Shown piece by piece: positions 5,852 through 15,021 of a DNA stretch of 22,799 nt. Within the stretch, counting starts at the first letter, position 1. Every line of letters begins with the position of its first letter. Source of the stretch: a virus; IMG/VR virus record IMGVR_UViG_3300044630_003140, positions 1 through 22,799 of that record; one strand, 5' to 3'. The notes under the pieces were generated by a model. That model was not told the DNA's origin. It ran no database searches and was given only the letters and a program-made list of their open reading frames with translations. Position numbers and translations under genes: made by a program.

Positions 5852-7513
5852 TTATACTAACGTTACTACATACTCTAAGTCTACTCTTAAATCGCTTGCA
5901 CCCGCTCCCGCAGTAACATTTATAGTTAAGTAATCGTTTGTAGTCAAACTAATACTTGCCGCAGTTGTTGTCATTTTATTTGTGTTAGAACTTATATTGT
6001 ATGTTCCAACAACTGAGCCGTTTTTCAATAACTGAAAAGTAAATGTACTAGAAGATGTAGTGCTCAAACTAGCATATACATTGCTGATAGTCAAACTACT
6101 AGGAGGATATAATCGTGCTGTACCGGTTGTTGGTACAGTAATAGTACCGCTTTGAGTCATAGAAATGTATTTTTTAACAGTATTAGTTTTTGTTTTCCAA
6201 GCAGTACCGTCCCAAATATACAATGCTTCTGTATCTTCTGCGAATGAAATATCACCTGTTCTGTTGTTTACTAAAGGTAGATATGAAGCATCTTCTACAA
6301 TTGCAATAGTAGGAACAACAACAACGTCATTACCAGCTACTAGAGTAGCAGTACCTGCTACTTCACGAATCTTATTCTTAAAGCTAGGTGTATTTTCAAC
6401 ATATGTTGCTAAGTCTTGGGGTACAAATTTATCAACACTTGCATCATACACAACGCACATTTGATTAACTAAACTTGGAATAGGACGAATCTCAATTGGT
6501 GTTTTATGTCCTTCGTTAGTGTGTTGAAAATATATAACATAGTTTCCATTGATATTTGTCTCAACAGCTAAATCTTTAATAGTTATTGTTCCGCGCATTG
6601 ATGAATGGAAACCGCATTGGTAATACAACGTATCAGGGGCACCATTTGGTACTGTGAATACTAATGTAGTTTGTCCAGCACTACCGTTGTTTCTACTTCC
6701 TGTAACACCAGTTGTATATTCACCGACATATGAATTTGCAACGAATCCAGTACCGTTGTCAGTAGTAAGATAGAATGGATGACCTTCTATAGAAGAATGT
6801 AAATTGAATGTGTATGTGCTACCTCGATACATAGGTCCTAAGTTTTTATTGTCTCCGTTTGCGGCGCTTTGATGATGGTGTATATTAGCAGCCATATTTT
6901 CACCAAACGTATATGCTCCTGCATTAGCAAAACTAACAGCATAATTAGCTGAAGGTGTATTTAATGTTGGTATTGTTAAATTAGCGGGTACTGTAACAGT
7001 AGTGCGCTTAACAACAGTACTTACTCCACCATTTATGTCAGGATGTGTTACACTAACATTACCATTATCTACAGCCCAATCTACTAAATTTTGAGTTCCT
7101 GCTCCATCGATCCACTTAAATTTTCCACTGTGCGTTTGAGTCATGTTACCATATATAGTCGCACCAGCAAAATTATGTACTGTGTAAACACCTTGCTTAT
7201 ACATTGGTACACTTATTTGTGGGCTGTTAGTGATTGACGTTCTTGCATAAGGTAATGTACTGGTTTCCCAAGTCCAGAACCAAGTAATATCATCGCCTGC
7301 ATCAGGTGCCGCTACTTGTATAGTCAATACTTCAGGTGCGATTGTTAGGTTGAAGGGGAAAATCTTATCTGAAGAAAAAACCGTATTACCTAAATATACA
7401 TTTGCGTTAGCGTCAAGATATAAGTCTTTATATGAATTAGTAGCACTACCTAATGTAGTATTTGCTACCGGTGTTAATATTGCCGCATTTTTTAGTTGAT
7501 AATAATTTGACAC
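5852..7513 (-). CDS. Fibre-like virion protein with an internal cupredoxin-like domain, 553 residues
   Basis: The N-terminus (LGSATNSYKDLYLDANANVY) matches the fibre modules of neighbouring genes. Residues about 228-313 resemble a cupredoxin: MYRGSTYTFNLHSSIEGHPF, then a loop, then TLVFTVP, then LYYQCGFHSSMRGTITI. H245, C300, H303 and M306 form a complete type-1 copper ligand set, and the C-x2-H-x2-M spacing is that of amicyanin. An HHH cluster lies just upstream at 212-214. The C-terminal third is again fibre-like (EALYIWDGTAWKTK and a beta-sandwich of about 100 residues ending in VDLEYVVTLV). The start is GTG 7513, supported by AAGGA 9 bases upstream; no closer ATG is in frame. A structural role is inferred from context. 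Whether copper is bound, or the fold is only a scaffold or adhesin, cannot be told from sequence. Confidence 0.8.
   Translation of the reverse strand: MSNYYQLKNAAILTPVANTTLGSATNSYKDLYLDANANVYLGNTVFSSDKIFPFNLTIAPEVLTIQVAAPDAGDDITWFWTWETSTLPYARTSITNSPQISVPMYKQGVYTVHNFAGATIYGNMTQTHSGKFKWIDGAGTQNLVDWAVDNGNVSVTHPDINGGVSTVVKRTTVTVPANLTIPTLNTPSANYAVSFANAGAYTFGENMAANIHHHQSAANGDNKNLGPMYRGSTYTFNLHSSIEGHPFYLTTDNGTGFVANSYVGEYTTGVTGSRNNGSAGQTTLVFTVPNGAPDTLYYQCGFHSSMRGTITIKDLAVETNINGNYVIYFQHTNEGHKTPIEIRPIPSLVNQMCVVYDASVDKFVPQDLATYVENTPSFKNKIREVAGTATLVAGNDVVVVPTIAIVEDASYLPLVNNRTGDISFAEDTEALYIWDGTAWKTKTNTVKKYISMTQSGTITVPTTGTARLYPPSSLTISNVYASLSTTSSSTFTFQLLKNGSVVGTYNISSNTNKMTTTAASISLTTNDYLTINVTAGAGASDLRVDLEYVVTLV
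6575..6832 (-). other. Cupredoxin-like (type-1 copper) domain
   Basis: This is residues 228-313 of the 553-residue protein. Putative ligands are His245 (codon 6779-6781), Cys300 (6614-6616), His303 and Met306. The strand preceding Cys ends in YYQC and the strand after Met reads RGTITI, as in plastocyanin/amicyanin-type domains. Confidence 0.7.
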
Positions 7514-7522
7514 AATTTTGTT

Positions 7523-7527
7523 TCCTT
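7523..7527 (-). promoter_or_regulatory. Ribosome binding site that supports a GTG start
   Basis: AAGGA on the minus strand lies 9 bases before GTG 7513. It supports use of the GTG start of the cupredoxin-bearing gene, since no ATG is available in frame nearby. Confidence 0.65.
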
Positions 7528-10317: not shown

Positions 10318-13300
10318 TTATTTACCAATAAACGCACTTGTAGGTGCCGTGAAGTTACTTGTATAACGTGCGTATCCTTTTGTGATTCTTAGGTCGTCTA
10401 TGTATCCGCTCATGAATTGTGTTAATGAGCCCGAATCCGAACCGATTATCAATGCGTTTGTTGGGTAATTTATTGAGTCAGTAAAGTTAACGCCATTTTG
10501 TGTACCATTAATATACATCTTAGTGACACCACTACCTCTAACTAATGCAACGTGATACCACTGCCCTAGTGTCAGTGCATTACTAGTTATTCTTCCGGAA
10601 CCACTATAATACTGTAGTGTACCGGAGGTCAGCCATAATATACCAGTATTAAAATCAATTATTCTACCTCCAGTACTGTTAAAATATACCCATGCTTCCC
10701 AAGTAAAGTCACCAGTACCAAACGCAAACGCTACACTGCTAGGTACCTTCAAATAATCTCCGGTGCCATCAAAATAGATACTACTGTTATTATACTTTTT
10801 AACACTAGTGCTTAATTGTGTGTTACCTACAGTTTCTAATACATTACTACCATGTAAATCAATTATACCACCGTTATTGAAGTTTAGTAACAAAGTTGTG
10901 TTTGGTATTGCTGTTACTGATGTTGTTGGTGGGATGAAATTACTGGTGTATAATGCAAAGCCTTTAGTTATACGAAGATCGGATAGATAACCGGTTAAGA
11001 TGTTATCAGCAGTTGAGATAATTAACGTTCCACCCGAAGCTATGTTTGTGCTATGTGTAAATGTTCCCGAAGCAACTCCATTAATATACCAAGCTGTACC
11101 GCTAGCGGAAGTTGATGTTCTTACTAAGGTGATGTTAGTCCAACTGTTAAGAGGTATTGATGTTGAACAAGTACTACCAGCAATAGTTGTGTTATTATTG
11201 ATTGTAAGTACACCTACTGCTGATAAATCCATACTAAAATCAGTTGAATCAGTCCCGCGTACAAACAACCTAGTCATTCCCGGTGCCGCTGTGCGATAAA
11301 TCCAAAATTCAATAGTATAGGCATTTGTGCCAAAACCTACAGTTGATCCGGATACTGTTAAATAGTCACCAGTACCATCAAAGTATGCACTACCACCCTG
11401 TAAATTTGAAGTATAACTTGTTGTACTCTGTGCGGTGTATCCAAATGGGTTGAATATTCTTGGTACAACATTACCATTAGCTGTTAATGTAAATCTATTA
11501 GTTGAGTTATCAATCATTGTAGTTGATTGACAGGTCAACAATGATACTTGACTTGCAGTTGCACCTTGGCTTGTTGTTGTCAATGGTGTTGTACTTGGTG
11601 TAAATGCCGATGTGTATAGTGCAGTGCCCTTGACCACTCGTAAATTAGAAATATATTGACTATTGGGGTTTAATATAATTGTTCCCGATGATGCATAGTT
11701 GGTTGCAATAGCACCGGATGCTGCCAATGCACCATTCTTGAAAATATAACCAGTACCGCTACTTCTAGTAAATGCCCAGTGTTCCCATACTCCTGCAACA
11801 GGTAAAACACTAGATGATGTTAAATCACTTCCGACATTGTATCTAGCAATTTGTACGCCATTACTAACAAAGTATATGCTGAATTCCCCGTTACTATTTG
11901 AACGGAAAATGTTACCCGGCACGGTTGTACTCAATGTTGTGCCTATTAAATAACTCCAAAATTCTACGGTAAAATCACCGGTACCAAATGCTAAGGAAGA
12001 TGATGTTATAGTGAGATAAGAACTAGTATCAAAGTAATTACTATAACTGATCGGTACTGCTTCAGGTATACTACCAAATGGTGAATAGGCTTGAACTGAT
12101 ACATCACCGTTTCTAGTTAATGTAAAATTGTTTATTGAATTGTCAATCAATCTGTTACTTTGACATGTTAATAAACTTGTGTTTGCAATTGCTGTTAGTG
12201 GAGTTGTACTTGGTGTAAATGTAGAAGTATATAACGCAGTACCTTTAACTATTCTAAGGTTAGAAACGTAGCCTAGAATACTACTATTGAAGTGTTGTCC
12301 TATAATTAATCCAGAATCTGAAGAAGGAGTTCCTGAAACTGCTGTGGATGTAGTACCTACTCCATTCACGTATATTCTAATACCGTTACTATCTTTTACA
12401 AAAGCTATATGACTCCATTGATTTAAAGATATCGTTTCAGTAGAGTCAACAGTAACGGAGCCTCCATTAAAATATTTAAACCTAACAGTTCCGTTTGTAT
12501 TTGGACCAAAACTCCAATAATTAGTACTAGATCCGGCTGCCATATTTCCAATTAAACACGGATTAGTATTTGTCAACCAGGTAGAAAGATTTGTTGGATA
12601 TACCCATGCATCTATGGTAAAATCTGTCGTCCACCATTGATTTTGTGTTGATGTTGTCGGTACAGACAAATAATCCCCAGTGCCATCAAAATAATTACTC
12701 CAACCAGTAACACTATAAGGACTAAATGATCCTTGACTTGTATTACCAAATCGTGTGATAATGTTATTGAAATTACTGTTATCTATAATAGCTTGATTAG
12801 TTGCGCCACCGTTATATTGTAGTGTTAATAACTGTGTATTTGCTACTGCTGTTAGTGGACTTGTGGGTGGGGTGAACGCTGAGGTATATACTGCTGTACC
12901 TTTAACTATACGTAAATCTGAAATATATCCTAACAAGGGCGCAATCGCATGAACAGTATCACCGATAACTAATCCAGCAGTTCTGTCTAAATTCACACTA
13001 TACGATGCGGAGTATCCTTGTACCCCATTAACAAACATTTTTAAAACCCCTGAAGTTCTTACTGCTGCCACATGACTCCATGAATTTAAGGTAACAGCCA
13101 CAGATGAGGCGTAAGAGGTGCCGTCATATAAATAAGGGAAATTACTAGCGTCTATACCTAAGAACCAAGGTGTTGCGGTTGCGCCACTTCTTGCATCTAA
13201 TAAACCATCATTTTCAGCAGAGGTTTTATAAACCCACATTTCAATTGTAAATTCCCCTGTACCAAAAGAAAGACCCGGAGTAAGAGATGATATAGTTAAC

Positions 13301-15021
13301 GTATCCCCAGTACCATCAAAATATGTACTACCATAAGTGCTGTAACTACTGTTTGTAGTGAATGGTGTTGCTGGACTGATTGATGTATCACCAGCTTTAG
13401 TAATTGTGAAATTGTTAGTTGAGTTATCAATTAACCTATTACTTTGACATGTTAATAAACTTGTATTTGCTATTGCAGTTAGTGGTGTTGTGCTTGGTGT
13501 GAATGTTGAGGTATAGACTGCGGTACCTTTAACTACTCGTAGGTTAGAAATATATCCAGTTAATACATTAGCTGGCGCTTGAAAGTCATTACTTGCTATA
13601 AACCATGTACCACTAGTGGTTGAATAGTTGGTTGAATCTGTTGTTGTGGCTCTACTGACGCCATCAACATACATAGTGATTGCACTGGAACCATTTCTAA
13701 CAATAGCACAATGATGCCATGTATTATCACAAACTACCACAGAAGTTCCTATATCAGTAGATCCATATCTTAATGCGCCGGCTGTTGTGGTACCATTATA
13801 TCCACCGGTTGTAATATGTAATGAAGTGATTGCCGCACGACCGGACAAAATAAATTTGTCATTATTCAATGGAGCATTGATCCAAAATTCTATAGTAAAT
13901 GATCCTGTACCAAATGCAAAAGCACTGTTGTTTGGGAAAGTAAGGTAATCCCCGGTACCATCAAAATAATTACTGTAATATCCCGGTGTATATGGATTAA
14001 ACAATACAGGTTTTGTATCACCTCGGATAGTCAATCCAAAACTATTTGTACTTGCATCACTAATAAACGGCATAACAGTTGTTTCTCCACTCAATAGTAA
14101 GGTAACGTATTTAAAATATAGATCATTTATTTCCACAATCCATGTAATTGTTCGTTGATTAGTACGATTTGTTGTTGCGGCTGTGGCTGTTAATAAAGTT
14201 GTAGTAGTGCCAGCTATAGTTGGGGTACCACTGATTGTCGCAGTACTTAACGTCAGTCCAGTAGGTAGACTATTTGCAGTATATGTAATGCTTTTTCCGG
14301 CTGCGCTGGTTGCACTTAATGTATTAGAGTATGCGGTTCCATCTAAATTGATACTTGTATTGCTACTTGGATTACTCCATGTAACATTGTCGGTATTGAT
14401 GGTTAGGGTAAACGTTCTAGTAACATCTTGTAACTCAGCATCAGTTGCAGTTACACCAAATGTATATGTTGTACTTGCACTATCAACTGGTGCAGTACCT
14501 GTAATTACACCATTTGCGTATAATGTTGCTCCACTAGGCAAACTTCCACTAGCTAAACTATATGTTATTGCGCTATCACTTGTTGCAATAACTTGAGTGC
14601 TTATTGAATTGGTTTCATATATATTACCAATACTACCGGCTGCAGTTGTATATGTTGGGACGCTAGAATAAACAAGTCCGGGCACTAATATAGCGGCACC
14701 ACCTGTACTGTTATAAACAATTAAACTATAACTTCCACCGGCAAGTGCAGGGCTTGTAAAACTTATTTGTGTTGGATTAACTAATGTTACTGGACTTATT
14801 GTAGAACCACTTACTGTTGCGGCTACTCCACTGGCAAATCCAGTACCATTAACTAACACAGTTTGACCTCCGGCAGGGTCTAAAGCAGTATCATCAGTAC
14901 CAGTTATACTCCAACCAGTTATAGTTGGTTGTGGATATAGATTTTGTACAAAGCTGGTTTGTAAATTAACAGTACCTTGATTATCGCCTGCTCTTTTACC
15001 ACGAAAGCCACTGTTAAACAT
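10318..15021 (-). CDS. Giant multi-lectin phage adhesin (IPT/TIG, Ig-like, six LamG-like domains), 1567 residues
   Basis: Domain order: a short leader (MFNSGFRGKRAGDNQGTV); an IPT/TIG-like domain at about 32-120 (GGQTVLVNGTGF, then GSYSLIVYNSTGG); two putative-Ig (He_PIG)-like domains at about 121-210 and 211-300 (LPSGATLYANGVITGTAP; LPTGLTLSTATISGTPT); and six concanavalin A/LamG-like domains at about 351-509, 566-720, 776-937, 995-1143, 1212-1364 and 1415-1561. Each LamG unit opens with YFDGTGDYL or a variant, continues FGTGDFTIEFW, and closes with ISNLRVVKGTAVYTSTFTP. Linkers carry LLTCQS and IDNSTNNFT. By family knowledge, LamG domains bind glycans or other surface ligands, so receptor binding is likely but inferred. 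Start ATG 15021 overlaps the upstream stop as TAATG, with GGAGGA about 10 bases upstream. No catalytic glycosidase motif is seen. Confidence 0.85.
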   Translation of the reverse strand: MFNSGFRGKRAGDNQGTVNLQTSFVQNLYPQPTITGWSITGTDDTALDPAGGQTVLVNGTGFASGVAATVSGSTISPVTLVNPTQISFTSPALAGGSYSLIVYNSTGGAAILVPGLVYSSVPTYTTAAGSIGNIYETNSISTQVIATSDSAITYSLASGSLPSGATLYANGVITGTAPVDSASTTYTFGVTATDAELQDVTRTFTLTINTDNVTWSNPSSNTSINLDGTAYSNTLSATSAAGKSITYTANSLPTGLTLSTATISGTPTIAGTTTTLLTATAATTNRTNQRTITWIVEINDLYFKYVTLLLSGETTVMPFISDASTNSFGLTIRGDTKPVLFNPYTPGYYSNYFDGTGDYLTFPNNSAFAFGTGSFTIEFWINAPLNNDKFILSGRAAITSLHITTGGYNGTTTAGALRYGSTDIGTSVVVCDNTWHHCAIVRNGSSAITMYVDGVSRATTTDSTNYSTTSGTWFIASNDFQAPANVLTGYISNLRVVKGTAVYTSTFTPSTTPLTAIANTSLLTCQSNRLIDNSTNNFTITKAGDTSISPATPFTTNSSYSTYGSTYFDGTGDTLTISSLTPGLSFGTGEFTIEMWVYKTSAENDGLLDARSGATATPWFLGIDASNFPYLYDGTSYASSVAVTLNSWSHVAAVRTSGVLKMFVNGVQGYSASYSVNLDRTAGLVIGDTVHAIAPLLGYISDLRIVKGTAVYTSAFTPPTSPLTAVANTQLLTLQYNGGATNQAIIDNSNFNNIITRFGNTSQGSFSPYSVTGWSNYFDGTGDYLSVPTTSTQNQWWTTDFTIDAWVYPTNLSTWLTNTNPCLIGNMAAGSSTNYWSFGPNTNGTVRFKYFNGGSVTVDSTETISLNQWSHIAFVKDSNGIRIYVNGVGTTSTAVSGTPSSDSGLIIGQHFNSSILGYVSNLRIVKGTALYTSTFTPSTTPLTAIANTSLLTCQSNRLIDNSINNFTLTRNGDVSVQAYSPFGSIPEAVPISYSNYFDTSSYLTITSSSLAFGTGDFTVEFWSYLIGTTLSTTVPGNIFRSNSNGEFSIYFVSNGVQIARYNVGSDLTSSSVLPVAGVWEHWAFTRSSGTGYIFKNGALAASGAIATNYASSGTIILNPNSQYISNLRVVKGTALYTSAFTPSTTPLTTTSQGATASQVSLLTCQSTTMIDNSTNRFTLTANGNVVPRIFNPFGYTAQSTTSYTSNLQGGSAYFDGTGDYLTVSGSTVGFGTNAYTIEFWIYRTAAPGMTRLFVRGTDSTDFSMDLSAVGVLTINNNTTIAGSTCSTSIPLNSWTNITLVRTSTSASGTAWYINGVASGTFTHSTNIASGGTLIISTADNILTGYLSDLRITKGFALYTSNFIPPTTSVTAIPNTTLLLNFNNGGIIDLHGSNVLETVGNTQLSTSVKKYNNSSIYFDGTGDYLKVPSSVAFAFGTGDFTWEAWVYFNSTGGRIIDFNTGILWLTSGTLQYYSGSGRITSNALTLGQWYHVALVRGSGVTKMYINGTQNGVNFTDSINYPTNALIIGSDSGSLTQFMSGYIDDLRITKGYARYTSNFTAPTSAFIGK
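10339..13971 (-). repeat. Six tandem LamG-like lectin repeats with linkers
   Basis: The approximate units are 13495-13971, 12862-13326, 12211-12696, 11593-12039, 10930-11388 and 10339-10779. The repeat period is about 200-220 residues. Linkers after units 1, 3 and 4 carry LLTCQS followed by IDNS; units 2, 5 and 6 have diverged there. Unit 4 has lost the GTG of YFDGTGDYL (it reads YFDTSSYL). Confidence 0.85.

Follow-up and report, generated by a model that had tools for sequence, protein, structure and literature searches.

Can a viral fibre protein carry a genuine type-1 copper site, and might the virus particle bind metal through it? The question is raised by a gene on the minus strand of the window, the 22.8-kb viral fragment analysed here (G+C 38%), where it lies with genes of tail-fibre type. 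The first-pass annotation had proposed that its 553-aa product embeds a cupredoxin domain with a full set of blue copper ligands, flanked on both sides by fibre-type sequence.

The gene product and its predicted fold

The gene is an uninterrupted frame preceded by a likely ribosome binding site (Table 1). Full-length homologues of its product, with 84% identity, are found on two IMG/VR contigs, and the whole protein contains two cysteines. Its C-terminal domain resembles a solved tail fibre, that of Agrobacterium phage 7-7-1 (Z 10.5), which bears out the proposed fibre-type context; with this domain and with neighbouring genes of fibre type, the protein can be classed as a tail fibre. A PHROG match to a baseplate wedge-tail fibre connector was also obtained.

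Table 1. Positions of features in and near the fibre-type gene. Coordinates refer to the window.
Feature	Position	Strand	Basis or remark
Likely ribosome binding site, AAGGA	7523..7527	-	9 bases 5' of GTG; sequence inspection
Fibre-type protein gene, 553 aa	5852..7513	-	Start GTG at 7513, stop at 5852, uninterrupted frame
Conserved beta domain preceding the cupredoxin, residues 56-183 (DITWFWTW...GKFKWIDG)	6965..7348	-	Family alignments
Predicted cupredoxin domain, about residues 185-316	6566..6961	-	AF2 domain model and full-length model matches
Insertion, residues 205-215 (ENMAANIHHHQ), containing HHH 212-214	6869..6901	-	Alignments; outside the conserved site
Ligand 1, H245 codon	6779..6781	-	Aligns with the ligand His of bacterial cupredoxins
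Ligand 2, C300 codon	6614..6616	-	Aligned with bacterial cupredoxin ligand
Ligand 3, H303 codon	6605..6607	-	Aligned with bacterial cupredoxin ligand
Axial ligand, M306 codon	6596..6598	-	Aligned with bacterial cupredoxin ligand
Most conserved stretch of the family, residues 318-389 (GNYVIYFQHTNEGHKTP...FVPQDLATYVENTPSF)	6347..6562	-	Family alignments
C-terminal beta domain, residues 444-553, resembling Agrobacterium phage 7-7-1 tail fibres	5855..6184	-	VIA Z 10.5, rmsd 2.5, 106 aligned

The isolated domain (residues 218 to 322) was modelled by AF2 with a pLDDT of 92.7. Comparison of this short model with the PDB (VIA) gave Z scores of 6.8 at most, a range in which a merely common arrangement is possible, and the rows were mostly rusticyanin, AcoP, azurin, auracyanin and laccases. 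Foldseek values for the same model were weak (best E 0.005), with Ig domains interspersed. This ambiguity was settled by the full-length model, numbered as the residue minus 1. The top PDB matches of its range 184 to 315 are cupredoxins, with a Z score of 9.4 for rusticyanin (rmsd 2.7, 107 residues) and of 9.1 for the cupredoxin domains of small laccases. The full-length model also contributes an extra strand near residues 187 to 193, beyond the short domain model. From this strand and the rusticyanin match, the domain spans about residues 185 to 316. The first-pass annotation had placed it at 6575-6832 (residues 228 to 313); its reading as a cupredoxin agrees with the predicted fold, whereas its start was set too late. 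The models thus support a true cupredoxin domain at residues 185 to 316, with ligand distances not in evidence.

The predicted fold is also matched in BFVD by small 'beta-sandwich proteins' from relatives of Pithovirus and Marseillevirus (A0A481Z6J5, A0A481YVH3 and others; E 5e-7 to 8e-5).

The four ligands and their conservation

Inspection of the translation located H245, C300, H303, M306 and the histidines 212 to 214 exactly as the first-pass annotation had them. The four ligands had been read as a type-1 set with the amicyanin spacing C-x2-H-x2-M, and this reading stands in a column-by-column alignment with the ligands of blue-copper proteins. A profile built from 83 phage copies of the domain was aligned with hhalign to eight bacterial blue-copper proteins taken via PF00127, and matched them at 96.4% (E 1.2e-9) with H, C, H and M all aligned. 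All four ligands are invariant in a second profile of 12 diverse phage copies. Run against all PDB sequences, the latter retrieved plastocyanin, amicyanin, pseudoazurin, copper nitrite reductase, auracyanin and a few laccases (best E 0.004). A broader profile (A4) was less useful than profile A1, its top PDB matches being unrelated, and a search of PDB sequences with the single domain gave no match. The 553-aa protein has no Pfam or NCBIfam match above cut-off, the only hit being PF25489 below threshold; PF00127 (Copper-bind) is not listed for it. Nor does it qualify under the amicyanin equivalog TIGR02657, given the lack of an NCBIfam match and the proline at position 246, directly after the first histidine, where asparagine is usual. 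Y298, close to C300, is invariant in the family alignment.

The histidines 212 to 214 had been suggested to add metal binding. They lie in an 11-residue insertion that is unique to the window sequence and absent from all aligned homologues, and we therefore rejected them as extra ligands.

When the 553-aa protein was shuffled, C-x2-H-x2-M appeared anywhere in it in 11 of 20,000 trials; it is the conservation of the ligands that excludes chance as the explanation of the motif. Our first conservation survey was biased, and because its DNA pattern itself contained the cysteine and the histidine it was replaced by searches with anchors outside the domain (A3 before it and A2 after it). All four ligands are kept in 76 of the 78 distinct homologues recovered in this way, which share 42-99% mutual identity; four, overlooked by a simple pattern, were scored by eye. 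In cyanophage gp9 proteins, found via their N-terminus, the set is complete in every one of 62 distinct C-termini. Few columns of the domain are as conserved as those of the ligands, and the codons of the cysteine and of both histidines change synonymously while the residues stay fixed. The ligands are thus not freely lost; free loss would have counted against the site.

The two exceptions, L003 and L261, occupy separate tree positions beside ligand-bearing sisters and represent two independent losses. Each lacks the Cys, His and Met jointly, which suggests that selection acts on the metal site as a whole; L261 retains the first histidine despite this loss. Selection on the metal site, as argued in the first-pass annotation, is therefore upheld by the counts and by the joint losses, and the site is the best explanation of the conservation. 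We rejected the stronger statement that loss is always all-or-none, given the histidine left in L261 and a further copy, L388, in which the cysteine alone is altered. The latter, from a 101-kb virus record (G012:C1:67600-68300), is a natural Cys-to-Asp copy of the domain (GHPLW...YYVDENHSAMAG) and retains the remaining three ligands; the substitution is that of the engineered azurin C112D.

The fold also persists without ligands, in L003, L261 and L384 and in a cousin domain encoded by the gene adjoining cyanophage gp9 (gp10-like; in L017 the gene from 3325 onward), where no ligands occur in 44 sequences. Metal is therefore not required for every use of the fold, and the cousin in the neighbouring gene indicates that the fold is viable without the site and that the site is guarded where present.

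Copper-competent and ligand-free versions of the domain stand side by side in the cyanophage gp9 gene cluster. Giant ORFs of 4600-5400 codons (G003, G004 and G007; L381-L383) encode a ligand-free version in which an insertion exceeding 100 residues splits the domain. In the pattern-biased survey, contigs from marine Bacteroidetes and other bacteria (L107-L153) encoded domains of this type, the ligand set being complete in 48 of 51 rows.

Distribution and relation to known proteins

The domain is not rare among marine phages. It occurs in about 300 marine phage records, nearly all of them cyanophages with few others, and within the phage collection it is restricted to marine and aquatic phages. 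Its commonest placement is the C-terminus of gp9, encoded between gp6 and gp8; podoviruses P-GSP1 and P-SCSP2 carry it as well, as does S-TIM5, and many phage genomes hold several copies. The contig of the window's closest relative carries a T4-type major capsid gene (gp23), and the uncultured phage of the window is therefore probably T4-like. Because of this capsid gene and the tail-fibre C-terminus, a virion location of the window protein is likely, inferred from these relations and not shown directly. The window gene is not itself gp9, since T4_gp9_10_N (PF07880) is absent from its product. The S-CREM2 virion proteome was also considered and rejected as proof of particle location, as no ligand-bearing copy was present in the S-CREM2 stretch searched.

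The phage domain shares its fold, its ligand order and spacing, and its profile similarity with type-1 cupredoxins (rusticyanin, amicyanin, plastocyanin, auracyanin; PF00127). It differs from them in being set in a multi-domain fibre, in having proline for asparagine after the first histidine and, for the window sequence, in falling below the Pfam cut-off. In cyanophage gp9 (PHROG 677; Syn9 gp102, S-SM1 gp9), the domain and its four ligands recur in the C-terminal ~80 residues, whereas Syn9 gp102 has T4_gp9_10_N and the flanking domains differ from those of the window protein. The P-SSM2 'T4-like proximal tail fiber' PSSM2_298 is likewise a tail-fibre protein. It contains two copies of the domain, one of which passes the PF00127 cut-off alone (23.3 bits versus 21.2), but its flanks are different and its C-terminal end is a Peptidase_S74 chaperone.

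The plastocyanin encoded by petE is a photosynthesis protein. As a phage-encoded cupredoxin it is known from cyanophages, where it is an auxiliary gene (PMC3037559); in contrast to the fibre domain, it is a stand-alone gene of 324-369 bases and no part of the virion. Metal sites on phage fibres have also been described, namely iron-bearing HxH sites on T4 gp37 and on marine phage tail fibres, together with a Trojan/Ferrojan horse proposal of metal-dependent host contact (PMC11705849). Those sites hold octahedral iron between paired fibre histidines, whereas the window protein has a cupredoxin copper site within one domain. No account of a phage structural protein containing a cupredoxin was found in the open-access literature (most subscription journals were outside the scope), and searches there that combined cupredoxin with phage tail fibre, cyanophage or virion returned nothing relevant.

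Possible roles of the metal site

The near-invariance of the ligands in hundreds of marine phages suggests that these virions do carry bound metal, copper being the most likely, and that it serves a purpose yet to be described. We consider it reasonably probable that the window protein is a tail-fibre cupredoxin with an intact type-1 set and an amicyanin-type short loop, in which bound metal stiffens a joint or host-contact module; metal binding and role are both inferred. Taken separately, occupancy by copper is a good prospect, though no metal data exist, while a structural or adhesive role for the metal is inferred at about even chances. In such a scheme, the domain would fold and assemble inside the host and would take up copper within the cell, or from the water after lysis. 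By holding the strands and the ligand loop in place, the bound metal could then make the module rigid, and this module might serve as a fibre joint or as a host-contact surface. In cyanophage gp9 the cupredoxin domain sits at the C-terminus, the place at which gp9 of T4 grips the long tail fibre.

Other readings of the same site have to be weighed. The metal might be zinc, or copper as Cu(I) only, acting as a structural staple in place of a blue copper centre. In vitro, other metals can occupy Cys-His-His-Met sites, and the replacement of the usual asparagine by proline would fit this option; we nevertheless hold it to be unlikely, as copper proteins are nearly all of the fold and sequence relatives with the same ligand order. 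It is very improbable that the cupredoxin fold was borrowed for binding alone, with the ligands as relics or structural residues and no metal. Some relatives do keep the fold after losing the ligands, but such disuse does not sit well with conservation through synonymous codon change (76/78 and 62/62), with the joint and independent losses of C, H and M, or with a single cysteine that has no disulphide partner inside the domain.

Type-1 ligand sets give rapid electron transfer in known cupredoxins. The complete set and the invariant Y298 near C300 could thus be taken as signs of a blue copper centre on the virion, where electron transfer or redox sensing at the host surface triggers a change in the fibre or baseplate. 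We find this improbable, since neither the window nor the neighbouring genes show a redox partner and since relatives without ligands exist. A docking signal is a different possibility, in which a copper-loaded domain is recognised by, or donates metal to, a copper-uptake or electron-transfer component of the host surface, as a copper 'Trojan horse'. Strict ligand conservation in adhesion-type proteins, the purely marine and aquatic distribution of the domain within the phage collection and the published iron HxH fibre sites with their Trojan/Ferrojan horse proposal (PMC11705849) all speak for it. We still rate it as rather unlikely: no receptor is known, the domain is present in phages with unlike hosts and, as inferred from T4, the gp9 domain is positioned at the joint and not at the fibre tip. 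Electron transfer seems to us less likely than a metal-locked module for adhesion or for a joint, with copper binding and function inferred.

The main interest lies in the breadth of the distribution: the apparatus by which common marine phages adsorb probably includes a copper site. Should the site be loaded, copper would be part of that apparatus in every particle of some of the ocean's most abundant viruses, the published iron 'Trojan horse' idea would extend to copper, virions would join the marine copper ligands and marine phage attachment would gain a chemical handle. A broader proposal remains speculative: the baseplates and tail fibres of marine T4-like phages would bear functional blue-copper centres, in many cases more than one or two to a genome, and the metal would be used in host contact or in a redox-triggered infection step. 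If such centres do work, virions would represent a copper-carrying class of ocean particle. Because Syn9 and S-SM1 gp9 have the same four residues, a direct test is feasible in cultured cyanophages.

Other fibre-type products are encoded on the same strand of the window. A 122-aa cupin-like protein (1948-2316) contains the motif HKHPFNH and resembles PHROG short tail fibre and tail fibre adhesin families; it is possibly another metal-binding fibre part. A 1567-aa protein (10318-15021) has six Laminin_G_3 (concanavalin-like) and two Ig-like stretches and is likely a sugar-binding fibre.
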